Assembly: GCA_947174175.1 (NCBI GenBank)
Contig: CAMWHW010000001.1
Span: forward strand, 1 to 22,844
Source: an uncultured Clostridia bacterium
Lineage (GTDB): Bacteria > Bacillota > Clostridia > Christensenellales > Borkfalkiaceae
Direction: 5' to 3'
Length of the DNA: 22,844 nucleotides
The translations under genes were made by a program, and so were the position numbers. The notes beneath the pieces are model-generated. The model did not search any database. It saw only the letters and a program-made list of their open reading frames with translations, and was not told the origin of the DNA. Within the stretch, counting starts at the first letter, position 1. Every line of letters begins with the position of its first letter. Positions 1-18,617 of the stretch are shown here, one piece after another.

Positions 1-43
1 ATATTGTGAAATAGATGTTTTTTGGAGAAAGCGAAGTAAAAGT

Positions 44-2590
44 ATGTCACAAAAGAATTGGGACAAATATGAGGTGGCTTTACTGATCGAAGCCTATCAA
101 AATATTAAGCAAGGAAGAGTGGATAAGAATACCGCTCTTGTTGCTTTGTCTCAAAACTTAAGACAAATGGCACAAAATGAAGGCTTGGAGATTGATGATG
201 TGTTCCGAAATTTAAATGGGATGCAGTGGCAGTTGGGATTTATAGAGAAAGCCTTTATTGGTAATGATTTCGAGAGTCGAACACCCCCTAAAATTTTTAT
301 AGAAATGGTTACAGTTTATAATGATAACCGGAAAGAATTTCAAGACATTTTAAAAGAAGCATACAAAAAAATTGCTACAGAAATAGAAATCAGCGACGAT
401 GTACGGAAAGAGTTGTTTAGAAGATGGGTTATCGACAAGATAAACATATCGTCAGCAGCATCTGTTGTAGATAATATTAATAATGTTTCCACTTATGCAA
501 ATAAGCGTAGTATAGCAAAAAAGAGTTTTTGGAGTTTTAGCGATTATAGGGAATTTAATATAATTCGCGTGAATCTATCAGGAAATAAACTTTTCAAGAT
601 GATGCACGGCAAAGAGCATCGTAAGTTTGAAAAGAACGGAAAACTCTATTCTGATTTTTTGAAAGAGTGCTTTAGCAAAAATAAAAATAATTGTCAAAAT
701 AATTTACCTAAAGATCAAGAAGAAGCTTCAGATTCCAAGCAAATAGAAAAATTTAATCAAGGTGAGAATTTAACGGTCTCTGCTATAGATGAAAGTCCTT
801 CGCCCAAAAAATCACTTAAAGAAGTTGCCGCTGTAACTGATGTTAAAAATGTTTCAAAAGAAGTAGTTGAGGCCAAAGAAAATTTTATTTTGGCACAATA
901 TTCTTTATGGCTAGTACAAGAGAAAAATGTTTCATATATAACAAGCCGAAGCTATGCTTCGAATTTACGAATCGTGAATATTCGTGCGCACGAAATGGGG
1001 TTGCTTGATACCAGTTTGTTTGATATAGCAGATGAGGATTTGCAAGAAACAGCTAGAAGAATTTTATCCGATAAAACGTTTTCCAAATACAACAGTGAAC
1101 AGCATAACCGATTTAGTGCGGCGTTGCAAGCGTACTTAATGTTCAAAACTGGGGAAAAGGCGACGGGGATCAGAACAAGGAAATCACACAAACATCACGA
1201 AGCAGTAACGTGTCCAGACGAGCTAAAAACACTCTTACTTAAAAAGTTTCCATATGGTATAAGAACAGATTCGCAAATAGACATGATGAAGCTCAAGAAT
1301 TTTGCCGGCATGTTTGATGTGAATTTAACTGAAAGTGAAGAATTATTAAAGACGCAAATTTTGGCTGGCGGTATTTTTTATGATGGAAAAATATATTTCG
1401 TCTCGGATGAGGTTATTGAAGCTATCATAGAAAAGATTAATAATGTTTTCGCGGAAGGGTATAGTGTAATTTACTATGAGGAATTGCTCGGCCGAAATTT
1501 TGAATGGTTTGATGAAAAACATATTTCAATGTGGGAGCTGATTCGAGAAGTTCTTGACAAACATAGCGAAGACTTATTTATAAGTAAAAACTTTTTACGG
1601 TACGGTACCGAACGCATCAATGAGGCGGATGCCTTGGAGGCGGAATTCGAAAAGGTTTGGGGTGACAATGCTACTCGTACTTACGATGAAATGTACGAAC
1701 TGTTACCATATATTCCTGACGAAAAAATAAAGTCGTATCTCTCGTTTTGTAAAAAGTTTGTGTGGTCATCTCATGAGACCTTTGCGTGGATAGACAAAGT
1801 TATTATCTCCGAGGAAGAAAAACAAGCGATTATTGATTATGTAACGGATGAGTGTGAACTTATTGGACATGCTTCTATCGCTAATGTCCCTCTTGGAAAT
1901 ATCGAAGAAGAAAACTATCAAATCTCGATTACAGCAATATATTCCGCAATTTACAATTTAATACTCAAAGACGATTTTAAAATCAATGGCAAAATTCTTA
2001 CTAAGAATAACAGCGGAACTGATGCCTTGACGCTCGCAAAGACTTATTGCGCAGAGAAAGATACCTGCTCATTTACGGAACTGAATAATTATGTTACTTC
2101 TATAAATGGGACGTCAAATAGACAGGTTGCCTTACGAGCAGCTTATGATCAGCTCGTAAGAGTGGAAGCGGATAAGTTTGTTGCTGATAAATTTATTCAC
2201 TTTGATATTGAAGCAATCGATGAACTTTTGGAACAAATAATAGTCGAAGATTTTGCTTCCATTAAAAGTATTGCAACATTTGTTATGTTCCCTAATTGTG
2301 GTTTTACTTGGACTTATTACCTTGTAGAGAGTTTTTGTTATAGATTTAGCAAAAAATTTACATTGCGCGTTATTAACCTCAACGATAAAAATGCGGGTAT
2401 TATAGCAAAAAAAGATTTAAATTTATCATATATAGATATGCTTGCTATTGTCGCAGCAAATTCTAAACTCGATTTAACATCCGATATTATAGGGCAATAT
2501 TTGTTTGATAATGGATATTTGGGAAGAAGAAAGACGCCAATAGTTGATACTGCAATAGAAAAAGCAAAAGATATCAGGGAGGGTAGGTAG
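44..2590 (+). CDS. Unrecognised 848-aa protein, first gene of the BREX-type-4-like operon
   Basis: I do not recognise the full-length protein. Residues about 5-75 (WDKYEVALLIEAY, then LRQMA, then FRNLNGMQWQLGFIEKAF) resemble a small N-terminal domain I know from Firmicutes restriction and helicase-type proteins. A charged K/E/S/N-rich linker covers about 205-275. Residues about 276-370 (ILAQYSLWLVQEKNVSYITS onward) look like the SAM-like, helical core-binding domain of tyrosine recombinases, but no recombinase catalytic R/H/Y set follows. The rest is mainly helical and may hold winged-helix DNA-binding units; a conserved-looking block sits near the end (TWTYYLVESF, KNAGII, LFDNGYLGRR). The stop is followed at once by the brxP ATG, so the two are co-translated. 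A GGAG at 24-27 lies rather far from the ATG. Inference: a DNA-binding sensor, specificity or effector subunit. The coding region is certain; the function is not. Confidence 0.9.
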   Translation: MSQKNWDKYEVALLIEAYQNIKQGRVDKNTALVALSQNLRQMAQNEGLEIDDVFRNLNGMQWQLGFIEKAFIGNDFESRTPPKIFIEMVTVYNDNRKEFQDILKEAYKKIATEIEISDDVRKELFRRWVIDKINISSAASVVDNINNVSTYANKRSIAKKSFWSFSDYREFNIIRVNLSGNKLFKMMHGKEHRKFEKNGKLYSDFLKECFSKNKNNCQNNLPKDQEEASDSKQIEKFNQGENLTVSAIDESPSPKKSLKEVAAVTDVKNVSKEVVEAKENFILAQYSLWLVQEKNVSYITSRSYASNLRIVNIRAHEMGLLDTSLFDIADEDLQETARRILSDKTFSKYNSEQHNRFSAALQAYLMFKTGEKATGIRTRKSHKHHEAVTCPDELKTLLLKKFPYGIRTDSQIDMMKLKNFAGMFDVNLTESEELLKTQILAGGIFYDGKIYFVSDEVIEAIIEKINNVFAEGYSVIYYEELLGRNFEWFDEKHISMWELIREVLDKHSEDLFISKNFLRYGTERINEADALEAEFEKVWGDNATRTYDEMYELLPYIPDEKIKSYLSFCKKFVWSSHETFAWIDKVIISEEEKQAIIDYVTDECELIGHASIANVPLGNIEEENYQISITAIYSAIYNLILKDDFKINGKILTKNNSGTDALTLAKTYCAEKDTCSFTELNNYVTSINGTSNRQVALRAAYDQLVRVEADKFVADKFIHFDIEAIDELLEQIIVEDFASIKSIATFVMFPNCGFTWTYYLVESFCYRFSKKFTLRVINLNDKNAGIIAKKDLNLSYIDMLAIVAANSKLDLTSDIIGQYLFDNGYLGRRKTPIVDTAIEKAKDIREGR

Positions 2591-4933
2591 ATGTATTCAT
2601 ATAGTTTTGATGAAGAAACGGGTGGACTTCTTCTCAATTCAACTCCTACCAGTTTTTCTAAAGAACCTCGTCCCGTATATGCAAGCGAAATGGACTTGCT
2701 GGGCTTTTCGGCTTACTGGGAATACAAACACCAAGACGAAGTTCCTTATTTGTGGGCAGAGTCTAATGTGTATTGGTACAGGGGGCAAATCATAGCGAGA
2801 ATTAAAGGTGGCGATTTATACCACAAACCAATTTTAACGCCTGCTGTAGATAATGAAGGTAAAGTCGTTTTTTGCAGAGAATCAGGGTGCATTTTGCAGC
2901 AGATGGATATTATCCAGATGTGCCAAAGGAATAGAGAACTTCTCAATACAATGGAAAGAACAACTGTACAAAAAATTGTACGGGTATATGAGAAGTATAA
3001 GAACAAACTTGATATATTTCATGTCGCTTTTTCTGGTGGCAAGGATAGTGCTGTCTTGTTGGATTTGGTGAAAAAGGCTCTGCCCAAAGGAAGCTTTATT
3101 GTAATTTTTGGAGACACTGGAATGGAGTTTCCTGACACGTACAGCGCTGTGGATTACACTGAAGCACAATGTGCGGCTGAAGACCCACCTATACCGTTCT
3201 ACAGAGCAAGTTCTCATTTTAATACTGAAGAATCTTGGAAGTTGTTTGGCCCACCCGCAAGAGTTTTGCGTTGGTGTTGCAGTGTTCATAAAAGTACACC
3301 TCAAACACTTAAAATGCGAGAAATTACAGGAAAAGACAACTACACGGGTATGGATTTTGTAGGCGTTCGCAAAGAAGAGAGTTTGGCGAGAAGCACCTAT
3401 ACTTACGAAAACTTTGGAAAAAAACAAAAAGGCCAGTATAGTTTTAATCCCATATTGGAATGGACTTCCGCTGAGGTTTGGCTGTATATATTCACAAACA
3501 ATATTTTTGTAAATGAAGCTTATAAAAAAGGAAATTCTAGAGCGGGTTGTTTGTTTTGCCCTATGTCTGGAGGACAAAGCGATTATTTTAGAAGATGTAG
3601 TTATACCGAAGAAATTGATAAATATATCTCTTATATAAAAAATTCTTATAGCGCAAAAGACGACAAATCCGTTGAATCTTATCTAACCAATGGTGGATGG
3701 AATGCAAGAAATAATGGAAGAGATTTAGCAGATAATCCATTTAGATGCATTGAAAATACATCTAAAGGTATGCTAAAAATAAATGTTATCAACCCTTTGA
3801 CAAATTGGGAAGAATGGATGAAAACTATAGGGTTTGTAACGAAAAATTCTGATAAATATGTAGTTCAATATAAAGATAAATCAATCCCATTTGTTATTAA
3901 AGATAGTAATAATAGTTATGACGTACTTATTAGTGAAGCTGAATTAAAAGAAAATCCTAAATTCGGAAAACTGTTTAGACAAGTGTTCCGCAAAGCCGCA
4001 TATTGCACAGCTTGCAGGGTTTGTGAAACAAATTGTCATAACGGCAGCATCCAATTTATAAATGGAAAAGTTAAAATTTCAAATTGTATAAATTGTCATC
4101 AGTGCCATGATATCGATGATGGTTGCTTGTTGTTCCATTCATTAAGACATCCGCAAGGAGGGGGTAAAAACATGAAAAGTCTTAATTCTTTTGCCGACCA
4201 TGCTCCTAAAAGAGAGTGGCTCGTAGCGTTCTTTGATTTAAAAGAAGATTTCTTTACTAACCATACACTTGGGCCAATGATGTATGATATGTTCAGAAGA
4301 TTTTTGAAGGATGCGGGATTAAATGATAAAAATCATTTTACGCCGTTTGCGGAAATGATTGCTCAAATGGGGTGGGAGACAGAAACAGCATTGGGGTTAA
4401 TAATGGTAAATCTTGCATTTGAAAACCCTCAGATAGAATGGTATATTAATAACCTTGATATAGGCTATTTTTATGAACGAGAAAAAATAGAAGATATGCT
4501 CGTAGCATGTGAAGTTAAGCCTAAAGATGCCAAGTCAATTTATAAAGCTTTTAGAAGAATTACAGAAACGCCGTTTGGAACGAATTTGAATTTTGGACAA
4601 GCAAGCAGTGAAGATATCGTTCGCTTTAAATGGTCTATTTCGGATAATCGTGTAGTTTTATATGCTTTATATAAATTCGTAGAAAAGTGTAATTTAGATA
4701 ATAGAGAGTTCCACTTATCATATCTTTTCAACGAAGAGATTGAACGCGACGGAGTTAGCCCTGTGCGTATGTTTGGAATTTATGATGAGGAAGAGTGGAA
4801 ATCCATTCTTTTAGGACTTTCCGCAAGATATCCTGAATTTATCAATGCCACATTTACCAATGATTTAAAAACTATATCACTCAAAGATAAAACGTCCAGC
4901 GACGTTTTGGAACTTTTCAAGGAGGAGCTTTAA
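2591..4933 (+). CDS. brxP: BrxP-like PAPS-reductase-family protein with ferredoxin-like cluster and C-terminal domain
   Basis: The ATP-pyrophosphatase (PP-loop) fold is clear: SGGKDS at residues 148-153, GDTGMEFP at 174-181, GVRKEES at 258-264. Cys229-Cys230 (RWCC) together with Cys320-x2-Cys323 match the [4Fe-4S] cysteine pattern of APS reductases and DndC. A second set follows, C472-x2-C475-x2-C478-x3-C482 and C499-x2-C502-x2-C505-x6-C512, like a two-cluster ferredoxin. Residues about 528-780 form a separate helical domain that I cannot name. In type 4 BREX a PAPS-reductase protein (BrxP) replaces PglX; DndC of phosphorothioation systems is a relative. Predicted role: ATP-dependent activation of a nucleic-acid position and sulfur transfer. 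The start is set by GGGAGGG just upstream and by the zero-base gap to the previous stop. A near-perfect Shine-Dalgarno and in-frame ATG at 4155-4174 may also start the C-terminal domain separately. Confidence 0.88.
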   Translation: MYSYSFDEETGGLLLNSTPTSFSKEPRPVYASEMDLLGFSAYWEYKHQDEVPYLWAESNVYWYRGQIIARIKGGDLYHKPILTPAVDNEGKVVFCRESGCILQQMDIIQMCQRNRELLNTMERTTVQKIVRVYEKYKNKLDIFHVAFSGGKDSAVLLDLVKKALPKGSFIVIFGDTGMEFPDTYSAVDYTEAQCAAEDPPIPFYRASSHFNTEESWKLFGPPARVLRWCCSVHKSTPQTLKMREITGKDNYTGMDFVGVRKEESLARSTYTYENFGKKQKGQYSFNPILEWTSAEVWLYIFTNNIFVNEAYKKGNSRAGCLFCPMSGGQSDYFRRCSYTEEIDKYISYIKNSYSAKDDKSVESYLTNGGWNARNNGRDLADNPFRCIENTSKGMLKINVINPLTNWEEWMKTIGFVTKNSDKYVVQYKDKSIPFVIKDSNNSYDVLISEAELKENPKFGKLFRQVFRKAAYCTACRVCETNCHNGSIQFINGKVKISNCINCHQCHDIDDGCLLFHSLRHPQGGGKNMKSLNSFADHAPKREWLVAFFDLKEDFFTNHTLGPMMYDMFRRFLKDAGLNDKNHFTPFAEMIAQMGWETETALGLIMVNLAFENPQIEWYINNLDIGYFYEREKIEDMLVACEVKPKDAKSIYKAFRRITETPFGTNLNFGQASSEDIVRFKWSISDNRVVLYALYKFVEKCNLDNREFHLSYLFNEEIERDGVSPVRMFGIYDEEEWKSILLGLSARYPEFINATFTNDLKTISLKDKTSSDVLELFKEEL
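4155..4174 (+). promoter_or_regulatory. Internal ribosome binding site and in-frame ATG inside brxP
   Basis: The sequence AAGGAGGGGG at 4155-4164 is followed after 7 bases by ATG at 4172, which is codon 528 of brxP in the same frame. It lies in the Gly-rich junction (PQGGGKNM) between the ferredoxin-like cluster and the C-terminal domain. It would give a separate 253-aa protein ending at 4933. Translation from here is inference; the site is stronger than several gene-start sites in the operon. Confidence 0.5.
4919..4927 (+). promoter_or_regulatory. Strong ribosome binding site for brxC
   Basis: AAGGAGGAG lies inside the last codons of brxP, 8 bases before the ATG at 4936. It fixes the brxC start and couples it to brxP, whose stop (4931-4933) is two bases before the ATG. 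Confidence 0.75.
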
Positions 4934-4935
4934 TC

Positions 4936-7900
4936 ATGAACGTAAGAAAATATTGTGAGTATTTTAATATAAACGAGACATATTTTCCGTGCATCGACGA
5001 ATCTGCCATAAATGCTGGTGTGGATTGGCAAGCAACATATCCACATGAAACATTTATCAAGCTTTTAAAGGCAACCGAAAACATGTTAGGCGGTGCTACT
5101 AAGCGTTCCGTCTGGATCCACGGTGCTTACGGCACGGGTAAAAGTCAATGTGCTTATGCGCTTAAAAAAATATTGGAAGCTCCGGAAAAAGATTTGCGGA
5201 TATATTGGGATAAGTTTGAACCACTTAAAAGGGAGAATCCGCTACTAGAAAAGCTTTTAGGGCATAAAGATAAAGGTATTATAACGGCATATCGTTATGC
5301 GTCGGGAAGTATCAATTCGCCGCAGCAACTTTTCTTGGCTGTTCAAGAAAGTATCAAAACGGCACTTATTAATCAAGGCGCACAATATATGGGCGAGCGC
5401 ACATTAAAAGAAGGAGTTATTGACTGGCTTAGTATGCCTGCGCAAAAAGCCTTTGTTGACTCGCTTTTGAATAAGCCCGAATGGCAGTCATTGTTCGCGC
5501 AGTCGAGTGCGGACGAAATTATAAATTCATTGCGCAAAAACGGTGATGTTTCGTCTTTAATGGATAATATTTTCCGCATGGCGGGGAAAGAAGGAATTAC
5601 TGCTCTTTCGTTGGATGCGGATAAATTGCGCGACTGGATAAAAGATATTATTGAAACTAACAAAACTAAAATCGTTTTAGTCTGGGACGAATTTAGTGAC
5701 TTCTTTAGGTTAAACAAGAATTCGCTTGGCGAGTTCCAAAAAATTGTTTCGATTTGCGAAGAAGCGCCGTTCTATCTTATAGTTGTTACTCATCCTATAT
5801 CTTCTATCAGCAATAACGATGATTCTTGGAAAATTGTTCAGCAACGTTTTGACAGAATAGAAATTGAGTTACCCGAAAACATTGCATTTGATCTTATTGG
5901 ACACGCTTTCAGTGTTAAAGATTCTGCAAAAGATGAATGGAATAAAATGACTAGTGGGTTGGAGGCATCTATACCCAATTCTACTGCTGCAGTTATGAAA
6001 GCCGCAAATATTACAGACAGAGCAGTAATTAAGCGTATTTTACCTATTCAACCAATTGCGGCACTGGTGTTGAAAAACATCGCAAATGCTTTCCAGTCGA
6101 ATCAGAGAAGTATGTTTGACTTTATAAAGACTTCGCACGATGTTGATGTTAAGGCATTCCAGTGGTTTATTCAAGAATTCAGTCCTATGGATGAGCAGCC
6201 ACTATTAACTGTTGATATGCTTTGGGATTTCTTCTATGTAAAGGGCAAAGAATATCTTACTTCTGATATTAAACTTATTTTGGATACGTTCCCGCAGCAG
6301 ACTGCGCTTAATGAAAAAGAAAAGAAGGTTTTAAAAGCTGTGCTTATTATGCAGGCTATTGACCAGCGTCTGGGTGGAACGCTTCCGATTTTAAAGCCCA
6401 CGGATCAAAATCTTGATTATGCTTTCGAGGGGATAGCCGAATACGAAACATCCGCTAAAAATATCGCAAAAGCATTGGAGAACAAAGGTATTCTAATCAG
6501 TAATCCTATTGGTGATGGTAAGAAAGCTTTTGGCGCGGCTGTTTTGGCGGGCGACAATGCAAAAATTGAAGCATCAAAAACGGATATAAGAAAGAATAAG
6601 GGTACAACAAGCTTTCTCGTTTCTCAAGGCGATATGCTCCCTATGGCACTTTCGCTTACGCCCGCACTCAAACTTCGTTTCGCAAGGGATGACAGCGGAA
6701 TAATGCGTATTGTTACTGTGTCGGACTTTACAAAAACAATGGAAGAGTTAAAGCATAAGGATGTTACATGGCATTTTCAATCTGTACTTGCTCTTGCTAA
6801 AGATGAGGATGAGGCACAAAATTTCCGTGCTTTAATTAAAAGAACAATTGCGAACGAGGAATACAAAAATATTATTGTTATTGATGCCCTATCTTCGCCG
6901 CTTGGTGTAGAATTATTTGAACAATATGTTGATTATTCGGCAATGGCGAATTATTATCAAGGCAACAATAATCAGCAGGCTAAAGAGAATTCAACTAAAG
7001 CTAAAAATGTTTTAAATAGGACTTGGAAAGATAAGATCCATGACGGGCAGTTTTATGTATATACTTATGCAAATCAAGACGGCGAAAAAGCAATAGGGGC
7101 AAACAACGTTCACGTTATCTTACAAACGCTTGTGCTTAATAGATTCCGTTACATATTTGATTTTACTAAAGGCCTTACAGAATCACAATTAAAACTTACC
7201 AATCCCAAACAAGTTTCACGTTATGGAATGGGAGGCGCGGATATAAAAGGCTTGATTTCAGGCTGTGAAAAGAGCATACTTGGATTAGTATGGGGTAAAG
7301 AAAAGTATTGGCTTGTTCCCGAATTACAGAATGCGCATATCGTTATTATCAAAAAAGCTATTGATAAATTAATTTCAGAAGCGTTCGTAGAACACGGACA
7401 AATTTCAATTGGCGAAGTATATGACTGCTTACAAGATGAATTTGGATTTTCGCCTTGTAGTTTGTCGGCTTTTATTACGGGATTTTTGTTAAAAGAATAT
7501 AGTTCTGACCCTTATCGGTGTATTGATTCTGAAGGGTATCCTAACACTATGACTCCCGATAAATTAGCCGAAATGATAGGTAATTATATTGGGAAAACAC
7601 CTAAACCTACGTATATCGTCAAGATGACGCAAGAGGAAAAAACATTCTATGAGGCAACCGAAGAAATGTGGGGTGTTCCGGCAACAACATGTTCCTCTCC
7701 CAGTCAGGTTGGAACGCTAATCGGCAATAAAATGCAGTCGTTTGGTTATCCTACGTGGTGTTTGGAAAATGTAGACGACTGTGGTGTTTATGATATTGTC
7801 AAAAAATACATAACTCTAGTTCAAAGTGACGGAAAAATTACGCATAACATAGCTATTGAAATAGGCAGAATTGTTATGCAAAAGCCTACACTTATAGCAA

Positions 7901-9078
7901 GTCTTAAAGGTCTTCTTACGTCTGATAAATGTAAAGATGGTATGATTGCCTTCCTTAAACATTACAAAGAAGGTAAGCTTATGGATCTTGCGGCGGAGAT
8001 CGGTGCAAATGACGTAGTTCTTTTCGATATTAAAAAAATATTCAGCGTTAAGCATTCCGCCATGTGGATTGCAGAAACGGGCGAAACAGAAATAGATAAG
8101 CTCATTATTGAGTATGAAGTAATAAAGCTTATTAATAATCTGTTGAATGTTTCTTGCAACACGAAAGAGAAGGCTTTCGACGCTTTGAGGGAAGTACTTA
8201 AATTCGCAGGGTTTTCGTGTGATGCGTTAAAGGCAAAAAGGCCTTCTCTTGAAAAGGTATTGAGTTATCTTCTTAAAATCATGAATAGAGAAGATATGTT
8301 ACCCGAGATGATGAAGGAGCTCTTTGCAGAACTTGTAGCGCATAGATCAGAGATATCAGAAATTCTTAACAATAAACTTGCGGTTTTTGAAGAGCTGTAC
8401 GAAGCATATTTAGAAAACTTCTCTATAATAGAAAAAGAGGAGATTCAAAATTCTATCAATAGGGAATTATTCACTGCACCCGCGACAACAAGCAACCAGA
8501 TTGTAAAACAGGCAGCCGAGACTTATCGCAAAAATCAAATTAAAACGCAGCTCTTCAACCAATGGAAAGAATTGACTGGAACAAAAAACCCGAGAGAATG
8601 GTCGAGTAGATACCAAACGCCTATCATGTGTTTGGTCGACTCTGCTGTGTATGGTGAAGCTAAGCTTGCATTTGCAACTTTAAACAGTACATATCAAAGC
8701 GATTCCGATATTCATGCCGCGTTAGATTTTCTAGCTAAATCGCAAGATTTCTTTAACCGCATAAAGGAAGCCGCGTATAGAGATGAAGAGTTTAAAAATA
8801 AAATAATAGGCTCGTATGTTGTGCTTCTTCCAGATATAAATAAAGTTAGACAAGCATTAGACGCTCTCGCAATCGATGTTTACGATTGGTATGATAGTCC
8901 TACTGTTAAGCAAAAAATACAGCAAATGGCAGATGCAGAATATTTTGCTGGTGGTAGTGATAAAGCTATAGGGCTTATTGACAAAATGAGTGATGCAGAG
9001 CTTAAAAAACGCTTGAAAGAGCTTGTTCAAAAAGATGTTGAATTAGGAATGAAGATTATTTCGAACGAGGATAAATAA
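4936..9078 (+). CDS. brxC: BrxC-like large P-loop ATPase
   Basis: This 1380-aa protein has a Walker A motif GAYGTGKS at residues 63-70, preceded by WIH, and a Walker B VLVWDEF at about 247-253 followed by SDFF. This is the pattern of BrxC/PglY ATPases, which are about 1200 aa and carry one N-terminal ATPase module and a long helical remainder. Here roughly 1000 residues after the ATPase core have no motif I can name. In BREX, BrxC is a core ATPase thought to work with PglZ and the modification subunit on DNA. It sits between brxP and pglZ, the expected type 4 position, with a 2-base gap before and a 1-base gap after. The gene is complete with no frameshift. The family call rests on ATPase motifs, size and gene order. 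Confidence 0.85.
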   Translation: MNVRKYCEYFNINETYFPCIDESAINAGVDWQATYPHETFIKLLKATENMLGGATKRSVWIHGAYGTGKSQCAYALKKILEAPEKDLRIYWDKFEPLKRENPLLEKLLGHKDKGIITAYRYASGSINSPQQLFLAVQESIKTALINQGAQYMGERTLKEGVIDWLSMPAQKAFVDSLLNKPEWQSLFAQSSADEIINSLRKNGDVSSLMDNIFRMAGKEGITALSLDADKLRDWIKDIIETNKTKIVLVWDEFSDFFRLNKNSLGEFQKIVSICEEAPFYLIVVTHPISSISNNDDSWKIVQQRFDRIEIELPENIAFDLIGHAFSVKDSAKDEWNKMTSGLEASIPNSTAAVMKAANITDRAVIKRILPIQPIAALVLKNIANAFQSNQRSMFDFIKTSHDVDVKAFQWFIQEFSPMDEQPLLTVDMLWDFFYVKGKEYLTSDIKLILDTFPQQTALNEKEKKVLKAVLIMQAIDQRLGGTLPILKPTDQNLDYAFEGIAEYETSAKNIAKALENKGILISNPIGDGKKAFGAAVLAGDNAKIEASKTDIRKNKGTTSFLVSQGDMLPMALSLTPALKLRFARDDSGIMRIVTVSDFTKTMEELKHKDVTWHFQSVLALAKDEDEAQNFRALIKRTIANEEYKNIIVIDALSSPLGVELFEQYVDYSAMANYYQGNNNQQAKENSTKAKNVLNRTWKDKIHDGQFYVYTYANQDGEKAIGANNVHVILQTLVLNRFRYIFDFTKGLTESQLKLTNPKQVSRYGMGGADIKGLISGCEKSILGLVWGKEKYWLVPELQNAHIVIIKKAIDKLISEAFVEHGQISIGEVYDCLQDEFGFSPCSLSAFITGFLLKEYSSDPYRCIDSEGYPNTMTPDKLAEMIGNYIGKTPKPTYIVKMTQEEKTFYEATEEMWGVPATTCSSPSQVGTLIGNKMQSFGYPTWCLENVDDCGVYDIVKKYITLVQSDGKITHNIAIEIGRIVMQKPTLIASLKGLLTSDKCKDGMIAFLKHYKEGKLMDLAAEIGANDVVLFDIKKIFSVKHSAMWIAETGETEIDKLIIEYEVIKLINNLLNVSCNTKEKAFDALREVLKFAGFSCDALKAKRPSLEKVLSYLLKIMNREDMLPEMMKELFAELVAHRSEISEILNNKLAVFEELYEAYLENFSIIEKEEIQNSINRELFTAPATTSNQIVKQAAETYRKNQIKTQLFNQWKELTGTKNPREWSSRYQTPIMCLVDSAVYGEAKLAFATLNSTYQSDSDIHAALDFLAKSQDFFNRIKEAAYRDEEFKNKIIGSYVVLLPDINKVRQALDALAIDVYDWYDSPTVKQKIQQMADAEYFAGGSDKAIGLIDKMSDAELKKRLKELVQKDVELGMKIISNEDK

Positions 9079-9079
9079 G

Positions 9080-11335
9080 ATGCTTGATGAAAGCGTAAAA
9101 AGTTATTTGTCTACAGCAAAAGGATTACCATTCTTTTATGCAGTGGGCGATAGTGAGTATAAATCCACTTTGGACGAGCTTAAGCAAGTAGGCGTAAGCG
9201 TTATACGCATAAGTGAGTTTTGCAAAAAACCCGACAAATTTCCTAATTTAGACGATTTGGTTGACTCATTTCGTACAGCAGACGTGGATTATAAGTCCAA
9301 TAAATATGTTCTAGTTGGGTTAGGTGAATTTCTTGCCTTAAGAGGTGAATCAGTAGCTCTAAATATTTTGCGAGATTTGAAGGGTAAAACACTTGGAACG
9401 GCAAGAGTTATTCTTTTGCTGCGTTTCGTTGGAACACAGGTTAAAGCAATTGCAGAAGAAGATATCAGAATTAAGTCACGAGTTTATGTCAGCAGTAAAA
9501 GCGGAGAAAATATTTCTATAGTAAATGTAAAAATTGATCAGGGCGTGGGATTGGTAAAAGAGGATGGCATTCAGTCGCTTTTACGTAGTTTAGAAGAAGG
9601 CAAAACAGGTAAATTGTTTGTAAAAACCAATCTTCAACTTAATGAATCTATGTTGTCCATCGAGAGTATAGAGGATTCTTATTCAGCAATAAAAGTATTG
9701 TCACAAGGGTTTAATTTGTTAAAATCCTTTGGAGAAGAAGAACAGTGGCGTAGATTCTTGGGTGATTTGCGCAAATATAATTATTCGCTTTCAAAGTTTT
9801 TTGAGAACTATGGTTTCTATTCCGACTCTGAAATGGATTTTATAGAAAAAGCTTTCGGGTACGAATATAAGAATTGGTTGTATTTCATTTACTTAAAATT
9901 AAACGTCGACAAATTAAGCAATCCCTATTTACGATATGTTATCGAGAGAGTGGATAATTTTAAGGATTTGAAAACGCAAACATTAAATGCTATTATTTCT
10001 GTCAAGCATACAGAAAAAAATTTCAAAGTCCTATATATTGCCAGAAAGAAATTAGTAAGGCAAGTTCCTGAAGCCGACATCGCTGTATTTATTCAACACA
10101 ATGAAATTTATCCCGATGAGAGCATTTATAAGTTGACAGATAATACGCTTTTAGAACGGCAAACAATAATTCGTTGGGTGTCGGAACACGGCATAGTCAA
10201 AGAGATTGAACATATTTATCCCGCATTATTTTTGTATTTACAGAAGTATTCGTTTGTGTGTGGTAAAAATTCCGACAAATTAACTGAATATTTTGAAAGG
10301 TATAAAAAACAAAAGATTGCAAACAGGGTCGAAGATGGATTTGAAGAGTATGCGACAGAATGTTCAAGTCTATATGCGGGGTTGGATACACGTGCTAATG
10401 CGCTGATGAAACTGGGAGACAAAAAAGCTACATATCTATATTGGATTGATGCTTTAGGAGTGGAGTATTTATCCTATATTCAAGAACGCGCCAAGCAAAA
10501 AGGACTTTCTATTCAGATAGAAATTGCGAGATCGATTTTACCTACTATTACAGGAATCAATCGAGGCTTTTTCGACGAATGGAGTGGAGATAAGTATAAA
10601 GAGCCTAGATTAGATGATATAAAGCATCATGACGTTGGTGGCTTCGATTATAGAAAATGCAAACTGCCTATTCATCTTGCAAATGAATTGGATGTAATAG
10701 AGGATGCACTTAATCGCGCTGCTACTGAACTCGCTTTCCATAACTACAAAAAATTTATAATAGCAAGCGACCATGGTGCATCCCGTCTTGCAGTTTTGGG
10801 CCAACACGCCGAGAAATATGAAACTGATACTAAAGGAGAATACTCGGGTCGTTGCTGTAAATATTTTGATGAGTATGATCCCCAAAAATCGGTTGCAGAA
10901 AACGACTATGTAATTTTGAAAGATTACGGTAGATATAAAGGTAGCAGAGAAGCCAACGTAGAAGTGCACGGCGGTTGTACTTTGGAAGAAACGGTAATTC
11001 CCATTATTGCATTGTCATTGAAAAACCAGACGGAAGTTCAAATTGTTGTTTTGACTCCTGATGAGCTTACAATTGATAGAAAGAATGGAGTTACTGTATC
11101 TGTTTATATTTCATATGTGGAATTACCTAAATCTGTGCGTATGGAAATTAATGGTAAGCCTTATTCTGCTGTGCAAACAGATAAAACGCATTTCAAATTT
11201 ATTTTAGGGGATATAAAACGCTCTGGCGATTATGAAGCTAGCATTTTTGATGGCTCGAATTTGATAGGGCGTGTAAAACTTCACTTCAAGGGAGCTGCTG
11301 GCTCTACAAAATCAGACTTTGACGATCTTTTTTAA
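9080..11335 (+). CDS. pglZ: PglZ-domain protein (alkaline-phosphatase superfamily)
   Basis: The 751-aa protein shows the PglZ-type alkaline phosphatase core: WIDALG at residues 455-460 (metal-site Asp457), IIASDHGASR around 560-569 (Asp564-His565), and VHGGCTLEETVIP around 629-641 (His630). These three blocks in this order are characteristic of PglZ, the one protein shared by all BREX types. The N-terminal 400 residues look like a partner-binding region and the last about 90 residues like a small beta domain. In other BREX systems PglZ binds the methyltransferase; here the partner is likely BrxP, which is inference. The ATG lies one base after the brxC stop, with GAGG a little upstream. PglZ may act on phosphate esters or serve as a structural hub; its substrate in BREX is not settled. 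Confidence 0.92.
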   Translation: MLDESVKSYLSTAKGLPFFYAVGDSEYKSTLDELKQVGVSVIRISEFCKKPDKFPNLDDLVDSFRTADVDYKSNKYVLVGLGEFLALRGESVALNILRDLKGKTLGTARVILLLRFVGTQVKAIAEEDIRIKSRVYVSSKSGENISIVNVKIDQGVGLVKEDGIQSLLRSLEEGKTGKLFVKTNLQLNESMLSIESIEDSYSAIKVLSQGFNLLKSFGEEEQWRRFLGDLRKYNYSLSKFFENYGFYSDSEMDFIEKAFGYEYKNWLYFIYLKLNVDKLSNPYLRYVIERVDNFKDLKTQTLNAIISVKHTEKNFKVLYIARKKLVRQVPEADIAVFIQHNEIYPDESIYKLTDNTLLERQTIIRWVSEHGIVKEIEHIYPALFLYLQKYSFVCGKNSDKLTEYFERYKKQKIANRVEDGFEEYATECSSLYAGLDTRANALMKLGDKKATYLYWIDALGVEYLSYIQERAKQKGLSIQIEIARSILPTITGINRGFFDEWSGDKYKEPRLDDIKHHDVGGFDYRKCKLPIHLANELDVIEDALNRAATELAFHNYKKFIIASDHGASRLAVLGQHAEKYETDTKGEYSGRCCKYFDEYDPQKSVAENDYVILKDYGRYKGSREANVEVHGGCTLEETVIPIIALSLKNQTEVQIVVLTPDELTIDRKNGVTVSVYISYVELPKSVRMEINGKPYSAVQTDKTHFKFILGDIKRSGDYEASIFDGSNLIGRVKLHFKGAAGSTKSDFDDLF

Positions 11336-11347
11336 GGAGAGGAAGAC

Positions 11348-12838
11348 ATGACTTATTCTGATAAATTAAGAGACTGTTTTGATGAAATGGTCGTTTATAA
11401 AGATTTAAAAAAGACGAATTTCTTTTCGGCTTTGAGTTTGCCTGCATTTATGCGTGATTGGCTTTTAAGAAAGTTTGAAGATGAAGAGGGAGAGTTTGAT
11501 AAAGACGAGTTAGCGCGTTTTGTAAAAAAATTCATACCTAGAAAAGAAGACTGGAATGCTATTAAAAACAGAATTATTGTTGAAGGGGAAAAGGTAAAAT
11601 TTTTAGCTAAAATTTCCGTAAATATAGACATCCGCACAGGCGAGGTATCATTTGCATTGCCTGAGTTTGGGCTTGGCTTTAAAGAGACTATTATTGAAAG
11701 TGGTGTCTGGGATGAATGCAAGGACGATCTTGTAAAAGGTAGAGATATTTGGGGAATGATCGAGCTTGGATATCGCGCTCCCGATGCTTTTGATATTGAA
11801 TTTGAATATGAAAGGACTAAATCAAAAGCTAAGACATCTAAAGAGGGCAAAATCAAGTTACTGTCATTTAGAAATTTCTGTCCGTATGAAATTGATGTAG
11901 ATCAATATAAAGAAGCCCGCAAAGAATTCACTACAGAAGAGTGGATAAATGTTATTTTAGGTGCCGTCGATTATAATGCAGATGGTTATAAGACTGAGGA
12001 AGAAAAGCTTACTATGCTTACTCGGTTATTGCCATTTGTGGAAAAGAGATTGAATCTGATTGAACTTGCTCCCAAAGGAACAGGCAAATCCTATCTTTTT
12101 GGCAATGTGAGTAGATATGGCTGGTTATCCAGTGGTGGTATAATGAGCCGCGCTAAAATGTTCTACGATCAGAGCAAACGCCGTGAGGGATTGCTAGCAG
12201 GCAGTGATTTTGTTACGCTTGACGAAGTGCAAACTATATCTTTTACTGATACTGACGAAATGAGAGCCGCATTAAAGGGATATTTGGAGCAAGGTACTTT
12301 TACTGTTGGCGATTATAAAGGAGTTGCCGAAGCCGGAGTTATTCTTTGCGGAAATATAAGAAAAGAAATAATGGACGCTGATGGATACGGCAACATGTTC
12401 GTCGAATTACCTGTTGTGTTCCACGAGTCTGCATTAATAGAAAGATTCCACGGATTTATAAAAGGCTGGAATATTCCAAGAATGAATGATGATTTAAAAG
12501 TTGCTGGCTGGGCCTTAAATTCAGAATACTTTTGCTCCATAATTCACGAATTGAGAAGCGATTTGACATATCGTTCCGTAGTAGACGAATTAATTGTTGT
12601 CCCCGACTCAGCGGATACTAGAGACACAGAAGCGGTTAAAAGAATAGCAACAGCATATCTAAAGTTGCTATTTCCGCATGTTCAAAACGCTAAAGATATA
12701 TCCGCATATGATTTTAAGCGTTACTGTTTATCAAGAGCGATGAGAATGCGTGATACAATTCGTTACCAGTTAGGACTTCTTGACAAAGAATATGCAGGCA
12801 AAGATTTACCAGCATTTACAATTTCAAAAGAAGATTGA
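11348..12838 (+). CDS. brxL: BrxL-like AAA+ protein without a visible Lon protease domain
   Basis: Walker A APKGTGKS lies at residues 241-248, Walker B TLDEVQ with Asp292-Glu293, a sensor-like CGNI at about 334-337, and LIERFHGFIKGWNIPRM from 363, with Arg366 a candidate arginine finger. These blocks match the BrxL AAA+ core. The N-terminal 200 residues fit the BrxL DNA-binding-side domain. BrxL of type I BREX is about 680 aa and ends in a Lon-like domain. This one is 496 aa and stops soon after the AAA+ lid region, so that domain is absent. There is no sign of a broken end: the stop is followed by a tidy ribosome site for the next gene. The start follows AAGGAGAGG in the 12-base gap after pglZ. 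BrxL is thought to be a DNA-loaded multimer acting against phage. Confidence 0.88.
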   Translation: MTYSDKLRDCFDEMVVYKDLKKTNFFSALSLPAFMRDWLLRKFEDEEGEFDKDELARFVKKFIPRKEDWNAIKNRIIVEGEKVKFLAKISVNIDIRTGEVSFALPEFGLGFKETIIESGVWDECKDDLVKGRDIWGMIELGYRAPDAFDIEFEYERTKSKAKTSKEGKIKLLSFRNFCPYEIDVDQYKEARKEFTTEEWINVILGAVDYNADGYKTEEEKLTMLTRLLPFVEKRLNLIELAPKGTGKSYLFGNVSRYGWLSSGGIMSRAKMFYDQSKRREGLLAGSDFVTLDEVQTISFTDTDEMRAALKGYLEQGTFTVGDYKGVAEAGVILCGNIRKEIMDADGYGNMFVELPVVFHESALIERFHGFIKGWNIPRMNDDLKVAGWALNSEYFCSIIHELRSDLTYRSVVDELIVVPDSADTRDTEAVKRIATAYLKLLFPHVQNAKDISAYDFKRYCLSRAMRMRDTIRYQLGLLDKEYAGKDLPAFTISKED

Positions 12839-12848
12839 TGGAGTTAAA

Positions 12849-13046
12849 ATGGAAAGCAAACGATGCTATGTATGCGGCAAAGAATTATCAAAGAACGAGA
12901 TTGGATTAACAAAAAAGCTTATCGATAAAAAAGCAAATAAGTTTTATTGTCTGTCTTGCCTTGCTGAATATTTGGAAGTAACCGAAGAAGAACTGCTGGC
13001 AAAAATTGAAGAGTTTAAAGAAGAAGGTTGCACTTTATTTAAATAA
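12849..13046 (+). CDS. 65-aa zinc-ribbon protein
   Basis: I chose ATG 12849 because GGAG at 12840-12843 is five bases upstream and the Cys-rich domain begins at once; the open frame runs back to a TTG at 12780, inside brxL, with no ribosome site. Cys6-x2-Cys9 and Cys34-x2-Cys37 make a four-cysteine metal site, most likely zinc. A short acidic helix (TEEELLAKIEEFKEEG) and a final GCTLF with Cys61 follow. It lies between brxL and the desulfurase gene with gaps of 10 and 9 bases, so it belongs to the operon. A role as sulfur carrier, desulfurase partner or small DNA-binding adaptor is possible; I have no evidence to choose. Cys61 near the C-terminus is worth noting for a persulfide role. Confidence 0.82.
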   Translation: MESKRCYVCGKELSKNEIGLTKKLIDKKANKFYCLSCLAEYLEVTEEELLAKIEEFKEEGCTLFK

Positions 13047-13055
13047 AGGATAAGA

Positions 13056-14180
13056 ATGAAGCAAATGATTTATGCCGATAATGCGGCAACGACAAAACTT
13101 GATATTGAAGCATTTGAGGCAATGAAACCATATTTGCTTGAGGATTATGCTAACGCTTCGCAGCCTTATTCCTTTTCCCGAGGCGTCAAAAAAGCCCTTA
13201 AAGATTCGCGTGAGATTATAGCTAAATGTATTAACGCTGAGCCTGATGAAATCTATTTTACGTCAGGAGGTACGGAAAGCGATAATTGGGCGATAAAAGG
13301 AATTGCTTATAACGATTCTAGTCGAAAAGCTATAATTACAAGCAATATAGAACACCATGCAGTTTTAAATTCTTGCAGACAAGTTGAACGACTTGGTGTT
13401 CCTGTTGCGTATTTGCCAGCTAATGAAGAGGCTATTATTTCCCCTGAAATACTGAAACAGTTTATAACTAAGCAAACTAAACTTGTATCAATAATGATGG
13501 CAAATAATGAAGTTGGATCTATACAACCTATCAAAGAGTTGTGTGCGATTGCTCATGATAATGGCGCGATTTTCCATACGGACGCGGTACAAGCGGTAGG
13601 ACATATCCCTGTGGATGTTAAAGCATTTGGAGTAGATCTTTTATCTGCCTCGGCTCATAAGTTTAATGGACCTAAAGGGGTTGGCTTTCTTTATATAAAA
13701 AAGGGAACTAAAATTGCTGAACATGAAATCGGTGGACATCAAGAGCAGGCGCTGCGCGCTGGCACCGAGAATGTAGCCGCGATTGTTGGTATGGCTATTG
13801 CATTGAAAAACAATTGCAATAATTTGGCAAAGAACTCGGAACTAGTAACAGAGATTGAAAACAAGTTTAAATCTTTATTGTCCAAGACAAATATAGATTT
13901 CATTGTAAATGGCTCAAAAGTGCATATTCCTGGGAATATCAGTTTATCGTTCAAAAATGCTGATGGAGAGATGCTGTTACATCGACTTGACCTCTTAGGC
14001 ATAATGGTTTCAACTGGTGCAGCGTGTGATAGTAAAAGCACTCAAATCTCACATGTCTTACAAGCAATAAAAGCTTCTGAAGAGTATGCAAAAGGAACGA
14101 TTCGCATATCATTTGGTAAGTATAATTCGTTGAAAGATGCCGAAATAATTGTGAATGGTCTAATACAAATTTTATCGTAA
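13056..14180 (+). CDS. Cysteine desulfurase (NifS/IscS/DndA-type)
   Basis: A pyridoxal-phosphate fold-type I enzyme that takes sulfur from L-cysteine and holds it as a persulfide on a catalytic Cys. Visible motifs: YADNAATT at residues 6-13, TSGGTESDNWAIKG, NIEHHAVL, HTDAVQAVGH, SASAHKFNGPKGVG with Lys202 as the PLP lysine, RAGTENV, and STGAACDSKST with Cys324 as the persulfide residue. At 374 aa it has normal family length. It is the last gene of the operon, nine bases after the zinc-ribbon gene with AAGGA before the ATG, and is closed by a terminator. No iscU, iscR or thiI lies beside it, so a dedicated role supplying BrxP, as DndA supplies DndC, is the simplest reading. The desulfurase call is near certain; the partner is inference. 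Confidence 0.95.
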   Translation: MKQMIYADNAATTKLDIEAFEAMKPYLLEDYANASQPYSFSRGVKKALKDSREIIAKCINAEPDEIYFTSGGTESDNWAIKGIAYNDSSRKAIITSNIEHHAVLNSCRQVERLGVPVAYLPANEEAIISPEILKQFITKQTKLVSIMMANNEVGSIQPIKELCAIAHDNGAIFHTDAVQAVGHIPVDVKAFGVDLLSASAHKFNGPKGVGFLYIKKGTKIAEHEIGGHQEQALRAGTENVAAIVGMAIALKNNCNNLAKNSELVTEIENKFKSLLSKTNIDFIVNGSKVHIPGNISLSFKNADGEMLLHRLDLLGIMVSTGAACDSKSTQISHVLQAIKASEEYAKGTIRISFGKYNSLKDAEIIVNGLIQILS

Positions 14181-14192
14181 AACAAAGAAATA

Positions 14193-14225
14193 CAGCCCGG
14201 CGGAGGGATCCGCCGGGCTGGTTTT
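14193..14225 (+). terminator. Rho-independent terminator of the BREX-like operon
   Basis: A perfect 12-bp inverted repeat (14193-14204 with 14209-14220) encloses a four-base GGGA loop and is followed by GTTTT. It begins 12 bases after the desulfurase stop. It is the only clear terminator seen after the seven genes, which supports a single transcript. Confidence 0.93.
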
Positions 14226-14561
14226 ATGCTAAAAACTTTGGGGAGTGAATTGGAACGGAAGTGCCCGAAAATTGGGGAGTTTCGGGAATTAAAATTCCGT
14301 TCATTGGAGTTTCGGGGAACTGTAATATCAGCGCCATATTACGGGCTGTTTTTGGGTTTTGGCAGGGTATTTCCGCTTCTCGCTAAAACACCTCGCCGGG
14401 TTCAAATTCGGGGACTTTATCCCTGAATTTCGGGGATTTTCCGTCGTATAAACAACCGAAAACCGATTGCTAAATTTCGTCTTTCTCAACTTACCTCAAA
14501 GGACGTTTTTGGGGAATTAATCCACCGGGTCTGCCTTAAAAACTTTTTAGTGCGCACAAAA
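14226..14561. other. Gene-free boundary region with repeated TTYGGGGA-like motif
   Basis: No credible gene lies here; a 66-codon frame from 14226 has no ribosome site or recognisable content. Six GGGGA copies, all on the + strand and each preceded by TTT, ATT or TTC, start at 14240, 14274, 14314, 14410, 14432 and 14511. Their spacing is irregular. An 11-bp inverted repeat with one G-T pair (14404-14414 with 14420-14430) and a short palindrome (14285-14298) also occur. The stretch separates the AT-rich operon from the more GC-rich genes to the right. No integrase, tRNA or clear attachment-site duplication was seen. Confidence 0.5.
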
Positions 14562-14590
14562 TTGCAATCGTGCTGGAAAACTGCTATACT
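14562..14590 (+). promoter_or_regulatory. Sigma-A-type promoter of the epimerase-like gene
   Basis: TTGCAA (14562-14567), a 17-base spacer and TATACT (14585-14590) are well placed 30 bases before the ATG at 14620. The short leader contains GGGAG at 14606-14610 as ribosome site. Confidence 0.75.
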
Positions 14591-14619
14591 TGTTTTGAAA
14601 AACGTCGGGAGATAAGCAA

Positions 14620-15516
14620 ATGAAAATTTTAGTTATAGGCGGAACGGTTTTCGTAAGCAAATTCATAGCGGAGTATTTTTCCGCAAACGGGCACGAAGTG
14701 TACGTTTTAAACCGTAACACAAAACCCCAGCTGCCCGCAGTCAGGCTTATTCAATGCGACCGCAAGGCAATAGACGGGCAGCTCAAAGACTTGCATTTCG
14801 ATGTCGTAATAGACGTAACCGCGTACACCGCGGAAGACATAAACAGTTTGCTCGACAATCTTGAAAGCTTTGATAACTATATAATGATAAGTTCCAGCGC
14901 GGTATATCCCGAAACTCTGCAAATGCCGTTTAAGGAAAGCGACGAGCGCGGCGCGAACAAATTCTGGGGCGATTACGGCACAAATAAAATTGCGGCTGAA
15001 AACGCTCTTTTGAAGCGTGTTCCGACCGCGTATATCATAAGACCGCCCTATCTGTACGGTGAGTATAACAACGTTTACCGCGAGGCGTTCGTGTTTGACT
15101 GCGCCGAAAGGGGCGCAACATTTTATCTGCCGAAAGACGGCTCTATGCCGTTGCAGTTTTTCCACGTAGAGGACCTGTGCCGGTTTATTCAAAGCATACT
15201 CGCGCAAAGGCCCGAACGGAGAATATTCAACGTCGGCAATGCTTCCGTAACGGTAAAGGAATGGGTGGAGTACTGCTACCGCGCCGCAGGAAAAACGCCG
15301 CAATTCAAATACGTTACGGGCGGTACGGAGCAGCGCAATTATTTCCCGTTTTACGATTACGGCTATGTGCTTGACGTGACCGAACAGAACAAGCTGTTGC
15401 CCGATTTGCTGCCCGTTGCCGACGGCTTGCAGCGGGCGTATGCCTGGTATAGGGACAACAAAAGTGCAGTAAAGCCCAAAAACTATTTTGAGTTTATCGA
15501 ACGCAATTTAAAATAA
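14620..15516 (+). CDS. NAD(P)-dependent epimerase/dehydratase-family protein (extended SDR)
   Basis: The N-terminus MKILVIGGTVFV (Gly7-Gly8-Thr9) is the Rossmann dinucleotide-binding loop in the variant seen in atypical extended short-chain dehydrogenases. SSSAVY at 91-96 gives the active-site Ser region and Tyr119-x3-Lys123 (YGTNK) the catalytic pair. IIRPPYLYG and FFHVEDLCR are further family motifs. At 298 aa it has normal length. The substrate is probably a nucleotide sugar, but nothing here identifies it; some members of this subgroup are RNA-binding rather than enzymatic. It has its own promoter and is not part of the operon to the left. Base composition is close to that of the right-hand genes. 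No terminator is visible directly behind it. Confidence 0.9.
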   Translation: MKILVIGGTVFVSKFIAEYFSANGHEVYVLNRNTKPQLPAVRLIQCDRKAIDGQLKDLHFDVVIDVTAYTAEDINSLLDNLESFDNYIMISSSAVYPETLQMPFKESDERGANKFWGDYGTNKIAAENALLKRVPTAYIIRPPYLYGEYNNVYREAFVFDCAERGATFYLPKDGSMPLQFFHVEDLCRFIQSILAQRPERRIFNVGNASVTVKEWVEYCYRAAGKTPQFKYVTGGTEQRNYFPFYDYGYVLDVTEQNKLLPDLLPVADGLQRAYAWYRDNKSAVKPKNYFEFIERNLK

Positions 15517-18578: not shown

Positions 18579-18588
18579 AATCGGACAA

Positions 18589-18617
18589 ATTATAACACTT
18601 CCCGCCGCCTTTTGCAA
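18589..18617 (-). promoter_or_regulatory. mnmA promoter giving a leaderless transcript
   Basis: On the minus strand TTGCAA (18617-18612), a 17-base spacer and a perfect TATAAT (18594-18589) predict a start at about 18581-18582, three or four bases before the ATG at 18578. No Shine-Dalgarno can fit. Confidence 0.8.

Follow-up and report, generated by a model that had tools for sequence, protein, structure and literature searches.

We analysed a stretch of 22,844 nucleotides (positions 1-22844, hereafter the window) that makes up the whole first contig of an assembly from an uncultured Clostridia bacterium (1.15 Mb, 67% complete). The window carries what we classify, on the basis of its sequence, as an ordinary type 4 bacteriophage exclusion (BREX) operon, which opens with a gene for an 848-amino-acid (848-aa) modular protein that we call F848, a name that we also use for its family. 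This protein is apparently an undescribed BREX component that is specific to one branch and swaps its N-terminal ‘head’ parts, and it is the new element of the window operon. The interesting part of the operon is accordingly the gene that an earlier note on this DNA had merely called a large unknown protein. We consider it rather probable that F848 is a constant subunit in one large branch of the type 4 systems, wherein a conserved core would dock on the BREX complex and exchangeable heads would read DNA.

Architecture of F848 and its relatives

Neither Pfam (searched to E 0.1) nor PADLOC or NCBIfam (both at E 0.01) gave a family that matches the window protein. The protein is composed of a helical N-terminal module termed N1 (residues ~1-118), two related SAM-like modules (~119-213 and 271-372), whose integrase-SAM-like label was transferred from relatives, and a conserved core (390-848). 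In the family, the C-terminal core spans ~460 aa and the part that precedes it ranges from none to ~950 aa, such that intact members are 458-1488 aa long. In its structural model, which has a predicted local distance difference test (pLDDT) score of 88, the core forms an array of winged helices, and the top fold matches of this model are tandem winged helices. Protein searches yielded 121 relatives (120 listed) when started from the window protein and 720 (120 listed) when started from a distant member.

The head families that can be named are integrase SAM-like, HARE-HTH, HTH_26, RNA polymerase (RNAP) alpha-CTD, sigma region 4, PC4 and MrcB_N, all of which are nucleic-acid-binding types. The family also bears on annotation: one member (P0135) is filed under the database name ‘site-specific integrase’, other members are filed as hypothetical, and the PADLOC library used holds no model that matches the gene. 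P0135 carries only the SAM-like N-terminal domain PF02899 (residues 396-479), and no catalytic integrase family was detected in 48 scanned F848 members. Another member, P0123, has an MrcB_N domain (PF12102) added ahead of module N1; MrcB-type proteins are a family of modification-dependent restriction. We met no description of the 848-aa family in the literature, where an unnamed family is not directly searchable.

Association of F848 with type 4 BREX

A BrxP-alignment scan of a collection of species genomes gave 344 confirmed loci, of which the best 80 were analysed. These 80 loci span Bacillota, Bacteroidota, Spirochaetota, Synergistota, Desulfobacterota, Planctomycetota, an archaeon and others. 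A hidden Markov model (HMM) of the F848 core finds this core directly 5′ of brxP in 75 of the 80 loci, with a median gap of 3 bp. Among the loci missed by the HMM, the upstream gene of L109 is a diverged F848 member (29% identity to the member from L114 over 433 aa by BLAST), L073, L106 and L112 start inside brxP and hold too little upstream sequence, and L104 has at most ~0.5 kb upstream, its brxP ORF (open reading frame) opening at base 174 and its match lying at 558. One locus (L098:4173-9968) bears tandem F848 members of 1364 and 564 aa before brxP, the second with an incomplete core.

The converse search, in which the F848 core profile was run against 398 genomes of the phylum to which the window belongs, produced matches in 11 genomes. 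All eight matches with E <1e-50 are located beside brxP, seven of them adjacent and one at a distance of one small ORF. In L034, a 238-aa ORF with an N1-like module sits between the core gene and brxP. The remaining three core matches are weak (1e-7 to 1e-11); two of these neighbour PbeA- and PbeC-type genes, and one is in an unrelated location.

Among loci, identity between cores correlates with identity between BrxC proteins (r 0.923, n=57), PglZ proteins (0.931, n=57), BrxP proteins (0.827, n=65) and BrxL proteins (0.695, n=54), and the corresponding value for BrxC against PglZ is 0.928 (n=55). The core set used for these values was the looser of two, in which a few cores included residues of the head (those of the window and L052 among them); with the core cut as one stretch, the values are 0.922 for BrxC (n=56), 0.926 for PglZ (n=56), 0.807 for BrxP (n=63) and 0.671 for BrxL (n=53). 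All 999 permutations gave r below 0.17, and 9 of 76 upstream proteins were left out because their core is not complete. As measured by these identities, the F848 core is co-inherited with BrxC and PglZ as tightly as those two proteins are with each other.

The association does not extend to every type 4 BREX locus. We counted 18 type 4 brxP places in 17 genomes of the phylum (E <=2e-206, together with G285, which is fragmented, and G265, which lies at a contig end). Eight of these have the core gene and eight lack it, some of the latter being truncated or broken. At the other two places (L042 and L045), the upstream protein has F848 head modules, and the C-terminal part shared by these two proteins is weakly core-like in L042 only. 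The next BrxP group, comprising 18 places at ~1e-100 to 1e-74, was taken as Ssp after four of them (L047-L050) had been viewed, and all 18 were excluded. Given that 8 of the 18 type 4 places have the core gene and others do not, we judge that F848 marks a single large branch within type 4 BREX rather than the whole type.

Exchange of head modules

Operons that are otherwise similar can carry different heads. In L054, L055 and L056, from Spirochaetota, Synergistaceae and Desulfofustis, respectively, the heads are unrelated (157, 283 and 117 aa), and identities are 74-80% for BrxP residues 1-530, 84% for the C-terminal part of BrxP and 61-74% for the F848 core. Proteins P0229 and P0231 share 97% identity over 473 aa of the core and 77% in the first module, with unrelated middle modules. 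The reverse case also occurs, in that residues 1-250 of the window protein are 65% identical to P0105, whereas the cores of the two share just 23%.

Heads were labelled with module profiles for N1, a SAM-like type and N4 (N2 and N3 matched the same stretches and were merged as SAM-like). Among 314 pooled proteins, left from 330 after removal of 16 that have no complete core, 25 module-order labels were distinguished, including ‘none’ and ‘unknown’; N1 is over-represented in the pooled set, since the first protein searches began from N1-bearing proteins. Almost headless proteins occur in 11 of 67 loci, nine of which belong to Selenomonadales; L052, which carries N1, is not counted among them. 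On a PglZ tree of 54 loci with 16 labels, some of whose ORFs are cut by contig ends, at least 34 head-label changes are required, compared with 37-45 (mean 41) in 200 shuffles. Head type thus appears from this tree to be nearly, but not wholly, independent of operon descent.

We also compared heads of at least 60 aa between proteins grouped by core identity, where the pairs are not independent of each other. At core identities of 60-70, 70-80, 80-90 and 90-97%, heads are unrelated in 132 of 1944, 2 of 821, 0 of 389 and 3 of 162 pairs, and partly shared in 1554 of 1944, 343 of 821, 96 of 389 and 23 of 162 pairs. The three unrelated pairs in the highest bin all involve P0229, paired with P0215, P0217 and P0218, which seem to be shortened versions of the P0221-type protein. 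These counts therefore suggest that full replacement of heads is mostly older, and that gain, loss and exchange of modules take place at all levels. L126 and L128 were considered as an instance of a recent head swap, and this candidate was dropped on finding that the sequence of L128 starts, at the end of its contig, only shortly ahead of the breakpoint. Taken at the level of sequence comparison, the N-terminal end of F848 is assembled combinatorially from modules, and these are exchanged between otherwise similar operons.

The window operon

The features of the operon are as follows.

44..2590, + strand: F848, 848-aa modular protein (ORF without Pfam, PADLOC or NCBIfam match)
2591..4933, + strand: BrxP, 780 aa (PADLOC, Pfam)
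4936..9078, + strand: BrxC-type ATPase, 1380 aa (PADLOC PDLC02485)
9080..11335, + strand: PglZ, 751 aa (PADLOC PDLC02554)
11348..12838, + strand: BrxL, 496 aa (PF13337, PDLC02505)
12849..13046, + strand: zinc-ribbon protein, 65 aa (Cys motifs; conserved in the loci of relatives)
13056..14180, + strand: cysteine desulfurase of the NifS/DndA type, 374 aa (Pfam, PADLOC, NCBIfam)
14193..14220, + strand: terminator-like hairpin of 12 pairs (10 G-C), readable on both strands (stem scan; directly 3′ of the desulfurase gene)

The earlier note had read these genes as a single seven-gene operon built around the type 4 order brxP-brxC-pglZ-brxL, and we agree on both counts. Seven + strand ORFs stand in tandem with intergenic gaps of 0, 2, 1, 12, 10 and 9 bases, and the four BREX proteins have full-length PADLOC matches in the order P-C-Z-L of type 4 BREX. 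The contig edge lies 43 bases before the first ATG, such that the promoter and anything farther upstream fall outside the sequence. Within positions 1-15000, the next-longest stem after the hairpin has 9 pairs, 4 of them G-C, and nothing comparable is present inside the operon. Terminator-like sites of the scan overall number 8 against a shuffle mean of 10.2, which is chance level, as is the number of promoter-like sites. Beyond the operon, 3.3 kb past the desulfurase gene, an ORF resembling the tRNA thiolation gene mnmA (17502-18617, - strand) was identified by eye.

BrxP matches PDLC02510 over residues 1-777 (E 4.9e-247) and contains the phosphoadenosine phosphosulfate (PAPS)-reductase domain PF01507 (E 7.5e-31), which was found in no other protein of the assembly (67% complete). 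Its Cys-rich, 4Fe-4S-like region holds eight Cys residues that are invariant across 12 sequences. Residues 536-766 match a second BrxP model (PDLC02511, E 1.5e-09), with no DUF4007 match in Pfam up to E 0.1; DUF4007 is a type 4 component that is often fused to BrxP, and it occupies the corresponding position of the published fusion, according to the text of a 2026 BREX survey (PMC12839542). BrxC matches PDLC02485 over residues 4-1378 (E 0), PglZ matches PDLC02554 over residues 1-751 (E 4.8e-201), and BrxL matches PDLC02505 (E 1.5e-223) and PF13337 (E 2.8e-110). No methyltransferase family is present among the Pfam and PADLOC matches of the seven proteins, the upstream view being limited by the contig edge.

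The window shares a desulfurase and a sulfur enzyme of the PAPS-reductase type with the SspABCD and DndABCDE systems, and its BrxC is weakly SspC-like (E 2.1e-17). It differs from both in possessing PglZ and BrxL, and BrxP, BrxC, PglZ and BrxL all match BREX models best. The scores leave a wide gap to Ssp (BrxC, 1546 versus 60 bits for SspC; BrxP, 820 versus 42 bits for SspD). A Dnd system would combine DndC with DndD and DndE; BrxP matches DndC only at E 1.4e-09 (PADLOC), and neither DndD nor DndE is matched among the seven proteins.

Two other loci depart from the usual arrangement. In L090 (15455-16480), a segment that holds the 3′ end of pglZ and the 5′ end of brxL is inverted within the operon, reflecting either an inversion or a misassembly; we dropped the idea of an invertible switch, for which clear flanking inverted repeats were not found. 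In L084 (Selenomonadaceae), brxP and brxC are followed directly by the zinc ribbon and desulfurase genes with no pglZ or brxL, and this locus is perhaps a modification-only remnant.

Zinc ribbon, desulfurase and sulfur chemistry

The desulfurase matches the DndA (E 4.5e-128) and SspA (E 1.9e-126) models of PADLOC and is an aminotransferase of class V by Pfam; the assembly holds four further PF00266 genes. The zinc ribbon displays C-x2-C...C-x2-C motifs and an extra Cys in a C-terminal G-C-x-L-F motif; at E 0.01, neither PADLOC nor NCBIfam matches it. A fold search with its model gave no significant match. Counting from the start of brxP, 58 loci extend for at least 11.5 kb; the zinc ribbon is found in all 58 and a desulfurase on the operon strand in 44. 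In the 398 phylum genomes, all 11 strong zinc-ribbon matches (E <1e-25) fall in genomes counted as type 4, and all five weaker matches (1e-7 to 1e-17) fall outside them. The genome comparison that the earlier note had proposed as a check on whether the outer three genes belong to the system was run, and the claim was not refuted: F848, the zinc ribbon and the desulfurase are conserved with the BREX core at the frequencies given above.

The fifth Cys of the zinc ribbon is kept in 70 of 70 aligned copies. Distant homologs with a similar C-terminal Cys motif occur in L163-L166, loci that by their sequence resemble alpha-galactosidase clusters. Because these distant copies keep the motif, it is no evidence for phosphorothioate chemistry, and we dropped the notion that the zinc ribbon is dedicated to carrying sulfur.

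The involvement of sulfur chemistry, which the earlier note also suggested, is in keeping with what is already known, as type 4 BREX is a DNA-phosphorothioation system. Yuan et al. are reported, in papers that cite them, to have described phosphorothioates of BREX type 4. The type 4 operon that this study validated is reported to be from a Bacteroides. The genes brxPCZL are counted among three known phosphorothioate-making gene families in the text of PMC11931770, where Yuan et al. 2024 is cited. The text of PMC12839542 likewise reports a zinc-finger protein and finds a desulfurase associated with type 4 BREX in 255 of 457 taxa (56%). Given that type 4 BREX is itself the phosphorothioation branch, the desulfurase and zinc ribbon are expected parts, and the new merger of BREX with phosphorothioation that had been proposed falls away. 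Only part of the proposed novelty of the seven-part combination survives: the desulfurase and zinc ribbon had already been reported, whereas the 848-aa family is apparently undescribed. The window agrees with brxPCZL in its four core proteins and their order, along with the zinc-finger protein and cysteine desulfurase, and differs from the published description by the variable-head family, which is not mentioned in the examined passages of PMC12839542.

Proposed role of F848 and alternative explanations

In the mechanism that we propose, the desulfurase would supply sulfur, as its DndA/SspA family suggests, and BrxP, as a PAPS-reductase/4Fe-4S enzyme, would insert this sulfur into the DNA backbone on the BrxC ATPase platform, by analogy with what is known for the family. 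PglZ and BrxL would carry out restriction. The F848 core would bind the BrxC-centred BREX complex and the exchangeable heads would read DNA, such that F848 would take the target-reading role that type 1 BREX places in the BrxX methyltransferase. Published passages identify BrxX as the basis of site recognition for both methylation and defence in type 1 (PMC11842806), and describe type 4 as having a phosphorothioation apparatus in place of the absent methyltransferase (PMC12839542). A variable DNA-reading subunit would fill this gap.

With no methyltransferase for site choice in type 4 BREX, a protein that is a constant part of the operon but whose heads are exchanged is a direct candidate for deciding which sites receive sulfur and which DNA is excluded. 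A stronger version of this proposal holds that F848 is an exchangeable specificity subunit, in which chained head modules would choose the phosphorothioate motif and the excluded DNA, and recombination of modules would retarget the complex in the manner of HsdS; we offer this only tentatively and regard it as less likely than not. HsdS is the specificity subunit of type I restriction systems, and its exchange retargets the complex. If our reading holds, F848 would work similarly: the complex for modification and restriction would stay fixed, and a single subunit on it would exchange the parts that read DNA. F848 would differ in having chained helical head modules and a core modelled as a winged-helix array, with backbone sulfur as the mark, and a Pfam search at E values up to 0.1 gave the window protein no match to the HsdS family. 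The specificity idea is testable on natural pairs of proteins whose cores agree and whose heads differ. The survey text, in addition to naming many accessory modules, assigns the part of dedicated DNA scanner to a DUF4007/BrxA unit, and describes DUF4007, BrxA and SspB as DNA-binding components of BREX and Ssp with winged helices (PMC12839542). The modelled F848 core shares a winged-helix likeness with these, although hhalign of the core against C-terminal parts of BrxP and four ORFs in the SspB position returned no significant match (probability 1%).

Several other explanations were weighed. The head diversity of F848 resembles arms-race variation and the P0123 head bears an MrcB-type N-terminal domain, as might be expected if the heads recognised phage nucleic acid or protein and triggered PglZ or BrxL, with phosphorothioation proceeding independently. 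Fast-evolving sensor modules are described in other BREX proteins in the text of PMC12839542. That the nameable heads are nucleic-acid-binding types speaks against such a phage sensor, which we hold to be a serious possibility, albeit one with less than an even chance; it overlaps with our preferred reading, which leaves what the heads read undefined. An operon transcriptional regulator, whose helix-turn-helix (HTH)-type modules would bind its own promoter and whose heads would vary with promoters, seems unlikely. It would fit a gene that is the first seen of the operon and heads that include sigma region 4- and RNAP alpha-CTD-like modules. Its chief support comes from the sigma-factor-like genes located 5′ of brxP in type 4 loci devoid of F848, namely L038:12030-13511, L046:6528-7973 and L032:12292-12654, which are separated from brxP by 28, 27 and 290 bp, respectively, the L038 and L046 copies being 75% identical. 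However, a regulator would not readily account for a core that co-varies with BrxC and PglZ as tightly as these do with each other, near-translational coupling to brxP, the size of intact members with their modelled winged-helix array, or heads that differ while the remaining operon stays similar (L054, L055 and L056).

The view that the 848-aa gene is an unrelated chance neighbour of brxP might draw on its lack of a known family, but is refuted by the 75 of 80 loci and the 8 of 8 strong converse matches, leaving it a negligible probability. Slightly less remote, though still very improbable, is the idea that chance placed the desulfurase and zinc ribbon behind the operon, as a housekeeping pair in sulfur metabolism that might serve, for instance, the mnmA-like gene downstream. 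That ORF lies on the opposite strand, the four further PF00266 genes could supply sulfur from elsewhere, and 14 of the 58 loci with room have no desulfurase on the operon strand. Against this stand the presence of the zinc ribbon in every one of those loci and of the desulfurase in most, the published association noted above (PMC12839542), and a strong hairpin that comes only after the desulfurase gene.

The large proteins weakly related to the F848 core that neighbour PbeA- and PbeC-type genes (L143:4991-8953 and L145:7032-10502) stand directly before genes for a PbeA-type helicase, a PbeC-type ATPase and an unnamed ORF of ~150 aa. Thus, a subunit similar to F848 may serve another phosphorothioate-linked defence.

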